In this document: piece after piece, positions 15,724-24,909 of the stretch
Layout: each line of letters begins with the position of its first letter
How positions within the stretch are numbered: the stretch's first letter is position 1
NCBI GenBank assembly: GCA_019510125.1
Contig: JAEKKX010000008.1
Coordinates: 62,001 to 126,000 of the forward strand
Direction of reading: 5' to 3'
DNA length: 64,000 nt
DNA from: Lysobacterales bacterium
GTDB taxonomy: Bacteria > Pseudomonadota > Gammaproteobacteria > Xanthomonadales > Xanthomonadaceae
Position numbers and translations under genes: made by a program
Notes under the pieces: model-generated
What the model saw: the letters and a program-made list of their open reading frames with translations, nothing else
Told to the model about the DNA's origin: nothing
Databases searched by the model: none

Positions 15724-18700
15724 ATGGAAGTCGTGAGGCAGCTCCTGGCCGAACTCGCCGGCCGGGACGTCAAGCTGGTGGTCGAAGACGGCAATCTGAA
15801 CTGCTATGCGCCGAAGGGGGCCCTGACCCCCGACCTGGCCGCCGCCATCGCGCGCTGCAAACCCGACCTGCTGCGCGTGCTCGCCGAAGGGTCGGCCGCG
15901 CCGGGGGCGTCGGCGGGGGCGTCGGGGATTGCGGAGTTCCCGCTGTCCGTCGGAGAGAACACGCACTACATCCTGCAGCGGCTCAATCCGCTGAGGAGCC
16001 ACGCGGTCCCGATCTGCGTCGAGGTCGGCGCCGACCTCGATCCCGGGCTGCTCGCCGAGGCCTGGAACCGGGTGCTCGATCGCCATCCGATCCTGATGGC
16101 GCGGATCGTCGAACGCGAGGGCGTCCCGGTCCACCACATCGACCCGGCCTGCCGCGCGGTGCTGCACGAGGAAACGCTGCCGCTGGCGCGCAGCGAGGAC
16201 GTGGTCGCGCACTTCCAGGCGCGCGTGCTCGAACCGTTCGACCTGCAGGCCGGTCCGCCGTGCCGGATCACGCTGTTCACCTGGGCCGGCGGACGCCGCG
16301 GCCTGTTCGTCCTCGTCCACCACATCGTGTCGGACGGTTTCTCCAGCGGCGTGCTGCTGCGCGCGCTGTTCGATGCGTACCGCGATGCGGCCGCGGGCCG
16401 TGCGGCCCCCGCGCCGGCCGCCGCCAGCGGCTACGAGGCGTTCGTCGAGTGGGAGCGGCGGATGCTCGAATCCGCGGACGGCCGCAAGCACGCCGACTAC
16501 TGGAAGGCGCAGTTGCAGGGCGACCTCTCCGGCTTCCGCCTGCTGCCCGACGCGCCGCGCCCGCTGCCGCCGGGTTACGAGCCGGAGATCGTGGTCGACA
16601 CGCTGCCGGACGAGGTCGCGCGCCGCGTCCGCGACTACTGCGCGGCGAAGTCGCTGCTGCCGTCGGCGTTCTTCCTCGCCGTGTTCCAGTTGCTGCTGCA
16701 CAAGTATTCGGGCCAGAAGGACATCGTCGCGGTGATGCCGATGGTGGTCCGGCCGGATGCGCGCTTCCACGACGAGATCGGCTACTACTTCAACATCGTG
16801 CCGCTGCGCGCCAGCTTCGAGTCGCCGCTCACCGCCGCCGGACTGATGCAGCAGATGCAGGGACGGATGGTCGATGCGCTGTTCCACGGCGCCTATCCGT
16901 TCCCGCTGATGATGAACCGGCAGAAGGGCAGCGACGCCCAGGATTTCCGGATCTACTACGCCTACCAGGAATTCGCCAATCTGTCGGATCCGTCCTTCGT
17001 CGAGCTTCGCCGCGAATTCGGCCTCGCTCCGTTCGAGGGCTTCCGGCAGAAGGCCGAGGGCGATTTCGACATCGCGTTCGAGGTGTTCCCGGAGGACGGC
17101 AGCTTCCGCATCCACCTGCAGAGCGATCCGAACCTGTACCCGAACGACACCATCCGCGCGCTGATGGCCCACTTCCGGGTACTGCTCGACGGGATCGGCC
17201 GCGACCCCGACCGCCCGGTCGCGGAATACCCGATCGCCACCGCGGAGGACCGTCGCCTGGTCCTGCAGGCATGGAACGACACCCCCGCGGACTATCCGCG
17301 CGATCGCTGCATCCACGCGTTCTTCCTCGACAACGTCGCCGCCATGCCCGACCGCCCGGCGGTGCTGTTCGAGGGGCGGACGCTGTCCTATCGCGAACTG
17401 GGCGAGGCGACCTCGGCCCTGGCCCTGGTGCTGCAGGCGCACGGGGTCCGCCCGGACACCATCGTCGCGCTGTGCGTCGAACGCTCGGTCGAGATGATGA
17501 CCGGCATCACCGGCATCCTGCGCGCCGGCGGCGCGTACATGCCGATCGACCCGGACTACCCGGATGATCGCGTCACCTGGATGCTCGAGGATTCCAGCGC
17601 GACTCTGCTGCTGACCCAGGCGAAGCATCGCGCGCGGGTCGCGGCGCTCGCCGGCCCGGGCGTGCGCGTGATCGCGCTCGACGACGACTGGGACGAGGTC
17701 CTGCGCGAGGCCGCGGCGCTGGCCGCGCAGGGCGCGCGCCTGGCCGAGGACGTCGGCCCGACCAACGTCGCCTACGTGATCTACACCTCCGGCTCCACCG
17801 GCAAGCCCAAGGGCGTGCTGGTCGAGCACCGCGCGCTGGTCAACCGCGTCCACTGGATGCAGAAGTCGTACCCGATGGACCACCGCGACATCGTGGTCCA
17901 GAAGACGCCGTACTGCTTCGACGTGTCGGTGTGGGAATTCGTCTGGCCGCCGATGGTCGGCGCGGCGCTGGCGTTCGCGGTGCCGAACGGGCATTCCGAC
18001 GCGCAGTACATGGCCTCGCTGATCCGCGGGGTCGGCGTGACCACCCTGCATTTCGTGCCGTCGATGCTGCACACCTTCCTCGACAACTGCAGCGAGCCGT
18101 GCGAGAGCGTGCGCTTCGTGTTCTGCAGCGGCGAAGCGCTCGACCGGCATTCGGTGGACCGCTACCGCAAGGCGTTCCCGAACGCCGCGCTGCACAACCT
18201 CTACGGCCCCACCGAGGCGGCGATCGACGTCACCTTCTACGACTGCACGAAGATCGAATATCCGTTCGTGCCGATCGGCGCGCCGATCGACAACACCCGG
18301 ATCTACATCGTCGACGCGCACAACAACCCGCAGCCGGTCGGCGTGCCCGGCGAGCTGCACATCGCCGGCGACAACCTCGCCCGCGGCTATCTCAACCGGC
18401 CCGAGCTGACCCGCGAGCGCTTCATCGACAATCCGTTCGAGCCCGGCGCGCGGATGTACCGCACCGGCGACCTCGCGCGCTGGCTCGACGACGGCAACAT
18501 CCAGTACCTCGGCCGGATCGACGACCAGGTGAAGATCGGCGGCGTCCGCATCGAGACCGGCGAGATCGAGGCGCACCTCAATCGCCACCCGGCGATCAGC
18601 GAAAGCGTGGTGATCGCGCGCGGTCCCGACGGCTACAAGCAGTTGATCGCCTTCTACCGTGCGGTCGGCTCGCGCGAGGACGACGTCGTCGCGCTCGCCC

Positions 18701-19974
18701 ACGGCGAACTGCGCGCGCACCTGCTGCAAACCCTGCCGGAGTACATGATCCCGGCGGCCTTCGTCGCCATGCCCTCGATGCCGGTCACCTCCAACGGCAA
18801 GGCCGATCGGCGCGCGCTTTCGAAGATCGAGGTCGGTCTGGAGTCGAGCCGGGAATACGTGGCCCCGCGCAACGAGGCCGAGCGCCGCCTCGCCGAGATC
18901 TGGGCCTACGTATTCAAGGAAAAGGGCTTCGTGCTGGAGCAGGCGAAGATCGGCGTCGACGACAACTTCTTCGAGCTCGGCGGCAATTCGCTGCTCGCCA
19001 CCCAGTTGCTGTACCGGATCCGCTCGGCGTTCGGCGTCGAGCTGCCGGTGCGCGCGCTGTTCGAGCAGGTCACGATCGCGCAACTGGCGGAGACCATCGC
19101 CCGGATCGCCGCCGGCGATGCGCAGGCGGCCGCCGCCGACCTGGTCGTGGCGATCCAGCCGCGCGGCGAGGGTCCGGCGGTGTTCGCGCTGCCGGGCGTG
19201 GGCGGCAACGTGTTGTCCTATCGCGAACTGAGCCGCGCGTTCGGCCCGGAGCAGCCGTTCCACGCCGTGGAGGCGATCGGCCTGGACGGCGCGACGCCGC
19301 CGCCGGACAGCGTCGAGGCGACCGCGCAGGCCAACCTGGCGGCGATCCGCACGCGCCAGCCGCACGGTCCTTACCGGCTGGTCGGGCATTCCTACGGCGG
19401 CGTGCTCGCCTACGAGATGGCGCGCGCGCTGCTCGCACAGGGCGAGCGGGTCGAGTACCTGGCGCTGCTGGATGCGGCGACGCCCGAGGTGCTGTTCGCG
19501 GCGGACGCGGGCGCGGGCGACGAAGCCGAGGACATGCGCCGCCTGTGCGCGGAACTGGCCGAGCAGAACGGCCGCAGTTTCGACCTGTCCACCGACGCGC
19601 TGCGCGCGATGCCCGTGGACGGGGTGCTCGCGCAACTGGAACGGCTGGGCATTCCGGTCGATCGCGACCGCTACGAGACCCTGACCGCGGTGTTCCGCGC
19701 GAACCGGGACAGCTATCGCCGCTACCGGCCGGCGCCGCCGCCGCTGCCGCTCGCGGTGCATCTGTTCCGCGCGACCCGGTCGATGCCGTCCACCGATGCG
19801 TGGCCCGGCGACTACGGCTGGGGCGCGGTCCTCGGCGCGGCGCCGGTCATCCACGACGTCGACGCCGACCACCACGGGATCCTCCGCGGCGCGGCGGCGT
19901 CGGCGGTCGCGGACGTGCTGATCGCGGCGTCCGCGCCGCGCACCGCCGGCGAGGCGGCGGAGACCACGCACTGA
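15724..19974 (+). CDS. Single-module non-ribosomal peptide synthetase: TubC-type docking - C - A (predicted Ser) - T - TE
   Basis: N-terminal LLAELAGRDVKLVVEDGNLNCYAPKGALT docking domain; C motif HHIVSDGFS; A motifs YTSGSTGKPKG, NLYGPTEAAIDV; T motif DNFFELGGNSLLATQL; TE motif GHSYGGVLAYEMA. Confidence 0.95.
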   Translation: MEVVRQLLAELAGRDVKLVVEDGNLNCYAPKGALTPDLAAAIARCKPDLLRVLAEGSAAPGASAGASGIAEFPLSVGENTHYILQRLNPLRSHAVPICVEVGADLDPGLLAEAWNRVLDRHPILMARIVEREGVPVHHIDPACRAVLHEETLPLARSEDVVAHFQARVLEPFDLQAGPPCRITLFTWAGGRRGLFVLVHHIVSDGFSSGVLLRALFDAYRDAAAGRAAPAPAAASGYEAFVEWERRMLESADGRKHADYWKAQLQGDLSGFRLLPDAPRPLPPGYEPEIVVDTLPDEVARRVRDYCAAKSLLPSAFFLAVFQLLLHKYSGQKDIVAVMPMVVRPDARFHDEIGYYFNIVPLRASFESPLTAAGLMQQMQGRMVDALFHGAYPFPLMMNRQKGSDAQDFRIYYAYQEFANLSDPSFVELRREFGLAPFEGFRQKAEGDFDIAFEVFPEDGSFRIHLQSDPNLYPNDTIRALMAHFRVLLDGIGRDPDRPVAEYPIATAEDRRLVLQAWNDTPADYPRDRCIHAFFLDNVAAMPDRPAVLFEGRTLSYRELGEATSALALVLQAHGVRPDTIVALCVERSVEMMTGITGILRAGGAYMPIDPDYPDDRVTWMLEDSSATLLLTQAKHRARVAALAGPGVRVIALDDDWDEVLREAAALAAQGARLAEDVGPTNVAYVIYTSGSTGKPKGVLVEHRALVNRVHWMQKSYPMDHRDIVVQKTPYCFDVSVWEFVWPPMVGAALAFAVPNGHSDAQYMASLIRGVGVTTLHFVPSMLHTFLDNCSEPCESVRFVFCSGEALDRHSVDRYRKAFPNAALHNLYGPTEAAIDVTFYDCTKIEYPFVPIGAPIDNTRIYIVDAHNNPQPVGVPGELHIAGDNLARGYLNRPELTRERFIDNPFEPGARMYRTGDLARWLDDGNIQYLGRIDDQVKIGGVRIETGEIEAHLNRHPAISESVVIARGPDGYKQLIAFYRAVGSREDDVVALAHGELRAHLLQTLPEYMIPAAFVAMPSMPVTSNGKADRRALSKIEVGLESSREYVAPRNEAERRLAEIWAYVFKEKGFVLEQAKIGVDDNFFELGGNSLLATQLLYRIRSAFGVELPVRALFEQVTIAQLAETIARIAAGDAQAAAADLVVAIQPRGEGPAVFALPGVGGNVLSYRELSRAFGPEQPFHAVEAIGLDGATPPPDSVEATAQANLAAIRTRQPHGPYRLVGHSYGGVLAYEMARALLAQGERVEYLALLDAATPEVLFAADAGAGDEAEDMRRLCAELAEQNGRSFDLSTDALRAMPVDGVLAQLERLGIPVDRDRYETLTAVFRANRDSYRRYRPAPPPLPLAVHLFRATRSMPSTDAWPGDYGWGAVLGAAPVIHDVDADHHGILRGAAASAVADVLIAASAPRTAGEAAETTH

Positions 19975-20685: not shown

Positions 20686-21456
20686 TTATTTCGGAGCGAG
20701 GCGCGTCGCGCCGTCGAGGCGGATGGTCTCGCCGTTGAGATAGACGTTGCCCAGGATGTAGGCCACGAGGTCGGCGAATTCCTCCGGCCTGCCCAGGCGC
20801 GAGGGGAACGGGATCGACGCCGACAGCGACTGCTGCACGCTTTCGGGCATGCCGTCGACCATCGGCGTCCAGAAGATGCCCGGGGCGATGGTCATCACGC
20901 GGATGCCGAAGCGGGCCAGCTCGCGCGCCATCGGCAGGGTCATGCCGACCACGCCGCCCTTCGACGCCGAGTACGCGGCCTGGCCGATCTGGCCTTCGTA
21001 GGCCGCGACCGAGGCGGTGTTGACGATCACGCCGCGCTCGCCTTCGGCGTTGGCCTCGTTGGCCTGCATCAGTTGCGCGGCGGCCTTGGCCACGTTGAAG
21101 CTGCCGACCAGGTTGACCATGACCGTGGTCTGGAACTGCGACAGCGGCATCGGGCCGTCCTTGCCCAGCACGCGGCCCGCGCCGAGGATGCCGGCGCAGT
21201 TGATCGCGGCGTTGAGGCCGCCGAGGAACTCCCTGGCCGCGGCGACATTGGCGACGACGCCGGCCTCGTCGGAGACGTCGGTGCGGAAGTAGCGGGCGTT
21301 GGCCGCGCCCAGTTCCGCGACCGCGGCGGCGCCCTTGTCGTCGTTGACGTCGAACAGGGCGACCTTGCCGCCGTGGGCGACGAGGTGCTTCGCGACCGCG
21401 AAGCCGAGGCCGGAAACGCCGCCGGTGACGAGGGCGCGGGTATCGGAAAGCTGCAT
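20686..21456 (-). CDS. SDR family oxidoreductase (3-hydroxyacyl-CoA dehydrogenase type II-like)
   Basis: TGGVSGLG cofactor motif, NCAGI, YSASKGG active site. Confidence 0.9.
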
Positions 21457-21687
21457 GCGCGTGGTCCGTGGATGCGAAAAGCGGGATTTTAGCGCACCGC
21501 CCGTCGGCCCCGGTCGCCGGACGCACGCGGGTCCGCGGGCGCGGCGAACGCGCGCCCGGGCCCGCGGCCCGGGGCAGGGGCCCGGGACAGGGGCCGGGCC
21601 GGCGTGGTATACCTGCCGGGCGTGCCGTGGCCCCGGCCACCGCGCAGACAATTCCGCTTTCCAGTCGTATCCCTTCAGAGACGCGTC

Positions 21688-21723
21688 ATGGCTGATACGA
21701 GACTGCCGGCAGTGGCCACTGCC
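21688..21723 (+). repeat. Partial duplicate of the start of the downstream T4SS effector gene (ATG + 16-bp palindrome)
   Basis: ATGGCTGATACGAGACTGCCGGCAGTGGCCACTGCC vs ATGGCTGATGATCGACAGAAGGCAGTGGCCACTGCC at 22858-22893. Confidence 0.75.
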
Positions 21724-22007
21724 GGACGCCACGGGCGCCCGCGTGCGCCCGCGCCTGCCGCGCACCGCGCCGGGCGCCGCCGATCGGCCTACCGGGCCGT
21801 GCCTGTGCAGGCCGCTGCGCGCCTGCCGTCGCCGCGTTTCATGCCGCGGCCTTCCACCGCGTTTCCCACCCTTTACGGGGCCGCCCGCTCCCCCGCAGCC
21901 GTTGCGCCTGTCCGCCTCCCCCGAGTTCGCGGCGGCGCATCGGCTTCGCCCTGTCCGCGGGCGCGTTCCCGTTTTCTTGTACCGCCCGTCGCGGGCCGGG
22001 GGCGCGC

Positions 22008-22787
22008 ATGACCGCCGCCGGCGGTCGCCGCGGGTGCACGGTCCGGTTCGCCCGGAGCGTCGCCGTGCTGGCCCTGTGGCTGGCCCTGGCCGGCTGCCGC
22101 GAGGCGCCCGCGCCTCCGTCGCCCGCCGCCGCACCGGCGCAGACCGCCTCGCCCGCACCAGACGCCGCGGTCACGCCCGCGGCCGCCTTCCAGGGGAAGA
22201 CCCAGATGACGGAACTCGACGCTCTCCTCGCGCTGTACGTGACCGAAGCCGGGCTGCAGTGGCGCGCCTACGACGGTCTCGCCGGGGTGCATTGGAACGA
22301 CCCCGCCCCGGTCGAGAACGACGCGGTCGCCGACCCGGCGCTGCGCTACGCGCGCAGCGGCCGCGTGCTGCTGGCCGGCTTCGGCGAGGTCGCGCTGCCC
22401 GACGGCAACGCCGGCGCCGACGCCGGCGTGCGCATCGGCAACGAGGGCGAGGCCGGGCTGACCCTCAACGGCGACGCCGACCGCGTGAACGAGATCGCGA
22501 TCGTCAAGTTCTACCCCAGCGACGACTACGCGCAGGTGCTGTCGGCGCAGTTCCCGGCCGCCGCGGTCGCGCCGGTCGCCGACCAGTGCACGGTCGACGC
22601 CTATGGCGGCGAGAACGTCCAGCACAACGCCTTCTATCGCATCGACCTGGGCGGCGAGCGTGCGGTCTTCGTCGAGGCGTTCGTCGACGAGGACGGCGGC
22701 GCCGCCGGCCCCGGTTCCACCACGTTCGTGTTCACCCGCGACAAACCCGCGGCCCGCATCGCGTCGATGCGCTGCCGCGAACGCTGA
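22008..22787 (+). CDS. Lipoprotein, candidate cognate immunity protein (X-Tfi-like) of the downstream effector
   Basis: Signal peptide with lipobox LALAGC; 70 bp upstream of an XVIPCD lysozyme-like effector, same strand. Confidence 0.6.
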   Translation: MTAAGGRRGCTVRFARSVAVLALWLALAGCREAPAPPSPAAAPAQTASPAPDAAVTPAAAFQGKTQMTELDALLALYVTEAGLQWRAYDGLAGVHWNDPAPVENDAVADPALRYARSGRVLLAGFGEVALPDGNAGADAGVRIGNEGEAGLTLNGDADRVNEIAIVKFYPSDDYAQVLSAQFPAAAVAPVADQCTVDAYGGENVQHNAFYRIDLGGERAVFVEAFVDEDGGAAGPGSTTFVFTRDKPAARIASMRCRER

Positions 22788-22857
22788 CCCGCGCCCGCGG
22801 TGATCCATCCGCGGGCATTCCCTTCCACACGTCGATATCCACTCGAGGGGCAACACC

Positions 22858-24909
22858 ATGGCTGATGATCGACAGAAGGCAGTGGCCACTGCCAATGCGT
22901 ACCACCAGGGCAACATCGCCGGACTGGACCAGGCCGAGACCCGGCGCCTGGTCGCGTCCACGGTGCTCACCGAAAGCAGCGGCGGCGATCTCGCCGTCAC
23001 CAACCGCCAGGGCTACGTCGGCCGCTACCAGGCCGGCGCCGGCTGGCTGGTCGAGGCCGGCTACGTCGACCGCCAGAAATACGACCAGGCGTTCAAGGCC
23101 TCGGGCGCGCGCACCGAATGGGAATGGGCGACCACCGGCGGCATGACCCGCTTCCTGCGCGACGATGGCAACTGGAAGGATGGCCTGAGCCTCGACAAGT
23201 ACAAGGCGTCCGCCGACCTGCAGGACAAGGCGTTCAAGACCAACTGCGACAAGCTCTACGCGCACGCCGTCCGCGACCACCTGCTCGACGCGAACAGTTC
23301 CGCCGAACGCGTCGCCGGCTTCCTCAAGGCCTCGCACCTCGGCGGCTACGGCGCCGGCAAGGCGGTGCTGGAAGGACGCCCGGTGCGCGCCGACGCCAAC
23401 GGCACCACGCCGTACAAGTACTACAACGACATCGCCCGCAACGGCGACGGCCTGGACCAGATGATGGCGCGCGGCGGCCGCGACCACGCGCCGGCGCGCA
23501 CGCCGGACGCGCAGACGCCGTCGCCCACGGGCACGACCGCTGCGCCCGCCGCGCCGGCGCCGCTCGCCGCCAGTGCGTTCTTCCGCCAGCAGACGCCGGA
23601 AGTCCGCGCCTACCTCGACCTGGTCGCGTGGAAGGAAGTGGGGCATTCGCTCAACGCCGACGGTTCGCCGGCCGGCTATCGCGAGCGCAACGGCGTGCCC
23701 GGCAGCCGCGGGCTGATGCCGGAATCGGCGATCGCCGACAACGGCACGCTGCCGCGCGACGAACTGCGCTACAACGTTGGCCGCTACCAGATGAAGCTGG
23801 TCGACGTCGAGGACATGCGCAACCGCTACGACCGCCGCATCGACGATTTCTCGCCCGAGAGCCAGGACCGCATCGCGGTGGCGAAGATGCGCTACCGGGG
23901 GGTGACGGCGGAGCTGGAGCAGGGCGACATCCGCGGCGCGATCGAGCGCGGCGGCAAGGAGTGGGCGTCGCTGCCGGGCTCGCCGTACGGCCAGGTGCAG
24001 CGTGGCTACACGGTCGAGAAGGCGATCGATTACTACGAGCAGCGGCTCGCGTTCCATCGCGCGCTCGACCGCGGACAGCCGCCGCCGGCGCACACCGAGG
24101 CGCCCGCGGCGTCGCGCGACCCGATGGCCGACGGCGTGCTCAGGCACGGCGAGCGCGGCGAGGCGGTGAAGCACCTGCAGGAAGCGCTGAACAAGGCCGG
24201 CATCCGCGACGACAAGGGCCAGCCGCTGCCGACCACCGGCTACTACGGCGACCTCACCGAAGCTGCGGTGCGCAAGTACCAGGCGCAGCACGGGCTGGAG
24301 GTCGACGGCAAGGCCGGTCGCGAGACCCTCGGCGCGCTCGCCTCGACCGCCGCGAGGACGCAGCCGAACGCCGATCCGCAGCATGCGCCCGCGCCGTCGC
24401 AGACCACGCCCTCCCAGACGACGCCCTCGCAAACCACGCCCTCGCAAACCACGCCCGCCCACCCGCCGCAGACCACCGACGGCGGCGCGGCGAACCCGCC
24501 GAGGACCGCGCCGCCCGCGCAGTCGGACAAGCCCTCGATCGCCGATCCGAAGCACCCGGACCACCGGCTCTACGAACAGGCGCTGTCGAACCTGCAGCAA
24601 CTGGGCCCCAGCGGCGGCTTCAAGTCCCGCGAGGAGCTGGAGAAGGCGGCCGCGGCCGTCGCCGCCGACGCGAAGGCGACCGGCCTGTCGTCGATCGACC
24701 ACATCAGCAAGACCAATGCGGTCAACGGGCAGACGCTGCTGGTGGCGGTGGAGGGCAGCCCGCTGAGCCCGGCGTCGAAGAACTCGTACATCGACTATGC
24801 GCAGGCGACGACGCAGACGGTCGAACAGAGCAGCCGCATGGCCGAGGCGGCGAAGGCGCCCGACCCGCAGGCGGCGCACGAGCAGGCCAGGAGCGTGTCC
24901 GGCCGCTGA
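22858..24909 (+). CDS. Putative X-type T4SS antibacterial effector: lysozyme-like N-terminus, GH104/lambda-R-like muramidase, PG_binding_1, XVIPCD
   Basis: Lambda-R-like segment AYLDLVAWKEVG...GRYQMK...FSPESQDRIAV...GDIRGAIERGGKEWASLPGSPYGQ; PGB LRHGERGEAVKHLQEALN...YYGDLTEAAVRKYQAQHGL; C-terminal XVIPCD HPDHRLYEQALSNLQQL...SSIDHISKTN...LLVAVEGSPLSPASKNSYIDYAQATTQTVEQSSR. Confidence 0.85.
   Translation: MADDRQKAVATANAYHQGNIAGLDQAETRRLVASTVLTESSGGDLAVTNRQGYVGRYQAGAGWLVEAGYVDRQKYDQAFKASGARTEWEWATTGGMTRFLRDDGNWKDGLSLDKYKASADLQDKAFKTNCDKLYAHAVRDHLLDANSSAERVAGFLKASHLGGYGAGKAVLEGRPVRADANGTTPYKYYNDIARNGDGLDQMMARGGRDHAPARTPDAQTPSPTGTTAAPAAPAPLAASAFFRQQTPEVRAYLDLVAWKEVGHSLNADGSPAGYRERNGVPGSRGLMPESAIADNGTLPRDELRYNVGRYQMKLVDVEDMRNRYDRRIDDFSPESQDRIAVAKMRYRGVTAELEQGDIRGAIERGGKEWASLPGSPYGQVQRGYTVEKAIDYYEQRLAFHRALDRGQPPPAHTEAPAASRDPMADGVLRHGERGEAVKHLQEALNKAGIRDDKGQPLPTTGYYGDLTEAAVRKYQAQHGLEVDGKAGRETLGALASTAARTQPNADPQHAPAPSQTTPSQTTPSQTTPSQTTPAHPPQTTDGGAANPPRTAPPAQSDKPSIADPKHPDHRLYEQALSNLQQLGPSGGFKSREELEKAAAAVAADAKATGLSSIDHISKTNAVNGQTLLVAVEGSPLSPASKNSYIDYAQATTQTVEQSSRMAEAAKAPDPQAAHEQARSVSGR
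24406..24465 (+). repeat. In-frame ~15-bp tandem repeats encoding (Q)TTPS linker
   Basis: cagaccacgccctcc/cagacgacgccctcg/caaaccacgccctcg/caaaccacgcccgcc. Confidence 0.85.

Follow-up and report, generated by a model that had tools for sequence, protein, structure and literature searches.

Does the gene pair at 22008-24909 of this window, a 64,000-nt stretch of the 4.08-Mb, 44-contig genome (G000) of Lysobacterales bacterium, encode a toxin together with its immunity protein, and if so, which of the toxin's two lysozyme-like domains does the immunity protein answer to? The upstream gene encodes a lipoprotein and the downstream gene, separated from it by 70 bp, encodes a 683-aa multidomain protein (Table 1). 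We regard it as highly likely that the larger protein is a bactericidal effector (X-Tfe) of an X-type type IV secretion system (X-T4SS) carrying two lysozymes of the phage tail-hub type, and that the lipoprotein is its immunity protein (X-Tfi), which would neutralise the N-terminal lysozyme domain (NTD).

An earlier sequence-only reading of this locus had proposed an X-Tfe/X-Tfi pair with two putative catalytic domains. Both open reading frames, the LALAGC lipobox, the 70-bp spacing and the 683-aa length were exactly as it described, and so were the motifs it quoted (TESSGG at residues 38-43, GRYQAG 55-60, AWKE 257-260, GRYQMK 308-313, FSPESQD 331-337 and WASLPG 369-374) and the QTTPS linker, which has four units. 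The C-terminal XVIPCD and the PG_binding_1 domain (PGB) that it named were recovered by profile searches, both far above the curated Pfam cut-offs (77.8 bits against 24.9 for the XVIPCD), and the domain matches of the effector are not due to chance. The N-terminal part, the predicted toxic region, consists of two lysozyme-like domains. Across all domains of the effector dN is well below dS.

The same genome holds 26 XVIPCD matches, 25 of them over the Pfam cut-off and one below, as well as an X-T4SS in pieces. The search for its genes took in virB3-6, virB7, virB8, virB10, virB11 and virD4. It placed virB7-8-10-11 on contig C19 (L040), virB3-4-5-6 at one end, the last part, of C32 (L033) and virD4 on C30 (L042), so that the secretion system the earlier reading had expected elsewhere in the genome is there. 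VirB7 matches a TcpQ/N0-like family at 1e-5, an N0-like VirB7 being a feature of X-T4SSs. VirB8 has a tail of 117 residues that is 73% A/Q/G/P, and an AQGP-rich VirB8 tail is given as an X-T4SS feature (PMC6536674). Because of the 25 over-cut-off XVIPCD genes and the X-T4SS parts, the locus is very probably an X-Tfe/X-Tfi pair. Against the 26 matches here, the published number of X-Tfe/X-Tfi pairs in X. citri 306 and S. maltophilia K279a is twelve (PMC6759196). Another T4SS, conjugative and of the Trb type, lies at G000:C19:18923-30599 and has a coupling protein of its own; it was considered as the delivery system and rejected, since it scores as conjugative TrbE and the VirB set is separate.

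Both lysozyme-like domains have relatives in phage hubs. The NTD matches phrog_27932, 'baseplate hub subunit and tail lysozyme', at 1e-12, and is 51% identical to a 948-codon protein of Xanthomonas phage Rb1, whose gene is annotated merely as hypothetical; the baseplate hub/tail lysozymes of Rb1 and Agrobacterium Atu_ph04 form its source family. Searches of Pfam and NCBIfam gave no match for the NTD or for the lipoprotein, and PDB profile searches using alignments of the two returned nothing credible. An AlphaFold2 model of the NTD, with 26 homologues as input, reached a pLDDT of 91.7; its best solved folds were MltE lytic transglycosylases (probability 1.0, TM score 0.5, E 0.014) and its best viral fold was a Gp5/VgrG-type hub protein (TM score 0.70, 27% identity). 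By homology and predicted fold, the NTD is a phage tail-hub-type lysozyme. Its TES...GYxGRYQ motif resembles the GH23 signature, which makes Glu39, retained in 22 of 26 aligned NTDs, a candidate catalytic acid. We call the domain GH23-like rather than GH23, because the MltE likeness reaches only the values given above and no Pfam SLT profile matched. NTD-type lysozymes also occur within long proteins of Rhodoferax, Xylophilus, Dickeya and others (L203, L206, L208, L211, L212), with neither lipoprotein nor XVIPCD; these are perhaps prophage hubs or other toxins, and the Dickeya protein additionally has a glucosaminidase domain. In the vir locus of a related genome, an NTD effector lacking Glu39 (L179, G230:C158) lies directly downstream of virB6.

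In the second domain, residues 234-409 match the phage hub structure 8kea (1e-24), residues 304-382 match lambda lysozyme 1am7 (1.6e-11), and the domain matches phrog_90 (2e-23). With lambda lysozyme R (GH104) the effector shares the active-site Glu and the GRYQ, FSPxSQD and WASLPG motifs. Glu260, which the sequence-only reading had singled out as the likely GH104 catalytic residue, occupies the lambda-type active-site position and is invariant, together with 22 other columns, among effectors, hubs and endolysins (14 aligned sequences). The likeness to lambda endolysin R thus held for the motifs but not for descent: in a midpoint-rooted tree built from 36 sequences, the domains of the four effectors cluster with three hub proteins of cyanophages (100/100) and the 29 endolysins stand apart, so that an endolysin origin was rejected. 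Judged by this tree, the GH104-like domain descends from phage tail-hub lysozymes, not from lambda-type endolysins, its source family being represented by the hub of Anabaena phage A-1(L) at about 39% identity. Among 397 genomes of the family, the effector form was found in only four, all of the window's genus. One of them, G138, carries it at the same chromosomal site in another scaffold, M23-like - PGB - GH104-like - PGB - PGB - XVIPCD (L137); the domain stands in two different effector scaffolds and has therefore been shuffled between effectors.

Could the GH104-like domain have ceased to be catalytic and now act as a further peptidoglycan-binding module? It is accompanied by no immunity gene of its own, and an inactive domain would need none. 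However, the invariance of Glu260 and its 22 companion columns, the intact movement between the window and L137 scaffolds, and the fact that no other domain of the effector is as well conserved (dN 0.15, 81% identity) argue for retained activity, and we consider its loss improbable. The phage hub relatives of both catalytic domains also raise the question of whether the pair might be what is left of prophage lysis or tail genes rather than a secreted toxin. In phages the lysozyme domain sits within a virion hub, whereas the window effector adds the PGB and the XVIPCD and is paired with a lipoprotein; moreover, the locus has no phage structural genes, and related genomes carry different XVIPCD effectors at this same position between an SDR gene and gmk. 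A phage remnant is accordingly extremely improbable.

Known X-Tfis are usually upstream lipoproteins (PMC6536674, PMC6759196). The window lipoprotein has a signal peptide and lipobox, lipoprotein signals occur in nearly all its homologues, and the lipoprotein adjoins an effector across Lysobacter, Xanthomonas, Luteimonas, Dyella and Rhodanobacter, paired in the last four, too, with the NTD. Its structure model has a pLDDT of 84, and Met67, preceded by GGGGAAG, is a possible internal start. An NTD gene or remnant adjoins the lipoprotein gene or lies in the same cluster at 29 of the 36 homologue loci, a GH104-like domain at 3. The usual partner is an NTD-PGB-XVIPCD protein of about 430 aa that has no GH104-like domain; at five loci (L090, L093, L197, L198, L201) the lipoprotein is upstream of NTD-PGB proteins with no detected XVIPCD, the C-terminal region of which is possibly another delivery tag. 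In a survey that scored the top six candidates per genome, the lipoprotein was present in 23 of 23 sampled genomes with a Glu39-type NTD effector and in none of the four whose NTD effector had lost the Glu (G230, G173, G116, G090), an association that is suggestive of NTD immunity. No gene is common to all four GH104-like loci. Given that it co-occurs with the NTD and that the GH104-like loci have no gene in common, the lipoprotein is most likely the NTD immunity protein, and the GH104-like domain apparently has no evident dedicated immunity. The pairing proposed by the earlier reading therefore stands, with the refinement that the lipoprotein goes with the NTD and that no link between it and the GH104-like domain is seen.

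Alternatively, the one lipoprotein might neutralise both lysozyme domains, so that the fusion is fully covered. A lipoprotein homologue is indeed present somewhere in all four genomes with a GH104-like effector, and no other gene was found common to their GH104-like loci. Yet in G138 the GH104-like effector and that genome's lipoprotein are at different loci, the partners of most family lipoproteins are effectors without the GH104-like domain, and the neighbour of the GH104-like gene in G138 is a different lipoprotein (LIPC), one that G000, G014 and G062 lack. We therefore think double coverage unlikely. LIPC itself was considered as GH104 immunity and rejected on account of this absence and of a LIPC homologue that precedes an SLT-M23 effector in G173. 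A further candidate role for the window lipoprotein family, immunity to effector B of contig C42, was suggested by its position next to effector B; it was ruled out because the same cluster has an NTD effector and the order in G138 is lipoprotein - NTD effector - LIPA - effector B. This C42 cluster of the same genome (L034:4906-10265) comprises an NTD-XVIPCD effector, LIPA (a lipoprotein distinct from that of the window), an M23-PGB-lysozyme-PGB-XVIPCD effector and then a paralogue of the window lipoprotein.

Several observations weigh against an X-Tfe/X-Tfi pair in which the lipoprotein covers the NTD. The lipoprotein has neither a Pfam match nor a convincing PDB fold match. The T4SS genes are spread over three contigs, and the virB1/B2 end lies outside the verified part. 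The Glu39/lipoprotein association is phylogenetically clustered, since the Glu-less genomes all belong to one genus and represent at least two losses, and its scoring was confined to the top six candidates of each genome. Seven lipoprotein homologues are orphans, and the NTD copies of G014 and G062 (L177, L178) have no adjoining lipoprotein, both genomes having one elsewhere.

From these comparisons we infer how the pair would work. The XVIPCD would dock the effector on VirD4, and the X-T4SS would deliver it to the periplasm of an adjacent Gram-negative cell, where the PG_binding_1 domain would hold it on peptidoglycan. The two unrelated lysozymes, GH23-like (Glu39) and GH104-like (Glu260), would then cut the glycan strands, leading to lysis. 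In the producer's periplasm the lipoprotein, anchored in the outer membrane, would neutralise the NTD, probably mainly in leaked effector. It would have served as NTD immunity before the GH104-like domain joined, and probably still serves only as that. Immunity proteins of X. citri act mainly against the cell's own leaked effector (PMC10933484), and a second domain that leaks little or has low activity could therefore be tolerated.

How might toxin and immunity production be coordinated? A 14-bp palindrome, GCAGTGGCCACTGC, has exactly four copies in the 4.08-Mb genome, all at XVIPCD operons: upstream of the lipoprotein gene (21709), in effector codons 8-12 (22879), where the paralogous NTD effector of C42 starts, and ahead of an SLT-M23 effector operon on C44. 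There are 22 exact copies in the genus, and each of the 19 with enough downstream sequence precedes an XVIPCD gene in the same orientation; the remaining three are on short contigs. The palindrome is part of a larger two-helix element, in which stem P1 pairs a stretch upstream of the Shine-Dalgarno region with codons 3-7 and encloses the start codon, followed by hairpin P2, GGCAGT-GGCC-ACTGCC. Unguided RNAalifold recovered both helices, with compensatory changes in 5 of 12 pairs; 93% of pairing cells could pair, versus 27-57% for slid partners, and the covariation score was 0.279 versus 0.077 for shuffled alignments (0/500 shuffles). Single-sequence folding energies were just mildly better than those of shuffles. 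The codons GCT, GCA, ACT, AGA and CGA used in the element each make up less than 2% of the codons for their own amino acid among sampled genes, and where the residue is the same, codon identity reaches 0.90 over codons 8-12 versus 0.56 later, so that the constraint acts on nucleotides. A transcription-factor site was considered for the palindrome, but the covariation in P1, whose arms are about 25 nt apart, favours RNA.

The upstream copy of the element lies at the start of a putative leader open reading frame, in which conservation is limited to the first 12 codons and to the nucleotide level. Its stop overlaps the lipoprotein start, which suggests that the two would be translationally coupled. 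The C44 leader also ends in ATGA, and in three relatives (G173, G116, G090) the leader terminates 2 nt short of the effector ATG; G014, G062, G138 and G230 showed no junction of this kind. At L181-L183 a leader copy lies just upstream and the effector's own start has lost the element, which is also found in Lysobacter, Xanthomonas, Dyella and Rhodanobacter. The covariance model picked up no other copy among the loci of the window's own genome to which it was applied, neither at other effector genes nor at vir loci, suggesting that the element serves a subset of effector operons. Rfam held no match to it. With copies at the leader, joined by ATGA to the immunity gene, and at the toxin start, both genes would respond to the same signal. 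We lean towards the view that a set of X-T4SS toxin/immunity operons is marked and coordinated in this way, at translation, by a cis-regulatory RNA not described before. Regulation of bactericidal T4SSs is known mainly for the virB operon (CsrA, PMC7286519), and CsrA is one candidate signal for the element.

Table 1. Features of the locus and of the associated RNA element (window coordinates unless a locus is named).
Feature	Position	Strand	Evidence or remark
RNA element copy 1 (leader)	21647..21732	+	covariance model 1e-16; covariation; fold
Copy 1, P1 stem	21662-21671 with 21694-21705	+	encloses Shine-Dalgarno-like stretch and ATG 21688
Copy 1, P2 hairpin CCGGCAGTGGCCACTGCCGG	21706-21725	+	
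Putative leader open reading frame MADTRLPAVATA...	21688..22011	+	107 codons; stop overlaps lipoprotein start as ATGA
Predicted lipoprotein immunity protein (X-Tfi-like)	22008..22787	+	259 aa; lipobox LALAGC, Cys30; family of 36 loci
RNA element copy 2, at effector start	22814..22902	+	covariance model 3e-14
Copy 2, P1 stem	22831-22839 with 22864-22873	+	around ATG 22858
Copy 2, P2 GGCAGTGGCCACTGCC	22878-22893	+	
Further own-genome copies of the element	L034:10221-10303 (C42); L222:2157-2236 (C44)		
Predicted X-T4SS effector (X-Tfe)	22858..24909	+	683 aa: NTD - GH104-like - PG_binding_1 - QTTPS linker - XVIPCD
NTD, tail-lysozyme type, GH23/SLT-like fold	22858..23490	+	phrog_27932; phage Rb1; AlphaFold2 model; MltE and phage hub matches
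Putative catalytic Glu39 of NTD	22972-22974	+	
Lambda-lysozyme-like (GH104-type) domain, phage-hub lineage	23554..24072	+	8kea; phrog_90; Glu invariance; tree
Putative catalytic Glu260 of GH104-like domain	23635-23637	+	
PG_binding_1, residues 433-494	24154..24339	+	PF01471, E 7.7e-18
QTTPS-repeat linker, four units from residue 515	24400..24459	+	motif reading
XVIPCD (VirD4-recognition/secretion domain), residues 563-663	24544..24846	+	PF20410, E 1e-21; solved XVIPCD 7mu9, 8e-18

The closest described system is XAC2609/XAC2610 of X. citri, a GH19 lysozyme-like X-Tfe with a lipoprotein X-Tfi (PMC10933484), which is alike in its C-terminal XVIPCD, its peptidoglycan hydrolase and its periplasmic lipoprotein inhibitor. 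The window effector differs in its catalytic families and in having two rather than one. The window lipoprotein did not match XAC2610, an entry for which is absent among the listed matches of the PDB sequence and fold searches, so that no XAC2610-type fold was recognised. XAC1918/XAC1917 of X. citri, a putative peptidoglycan-hydrolase X-Tfe that was deleted there together with its partner gene (PMC6759196), is likened by description only. X-Tfes are already known as peptidoglycan hydrolases; apparently new here are an X-Tfe whose two unrelated lysozymes can both be traced to phage tail hubs, immunity that goes with just one of the domains, and an undescribed RNA element. The comparative data name the domain matched by the immunity protein and leave the other apparently uncovered, which poses a testable general question, namely whether every toxic domain of a polytoxic effector needs its own immunity. 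The RNA element, for its part, gives a starting point for studying how bactericidal T4SSs match the production of toxin to that of immunity protein.

The chromosomal site bounded by the SDR gene (about 20686-21640) and by gmk (about 24980) is an effector hotspot, with differing X-Tfe/X-Tfi cassettes in G014, G062, G138 and G173. Upstream of the hotspot, at 15724-19974, lies a 1416-aa open reading frame resembling a nonribosomal peptide synthetase, in which condensation, adenylation, carrier and thioesterase domains were recognised by eye.
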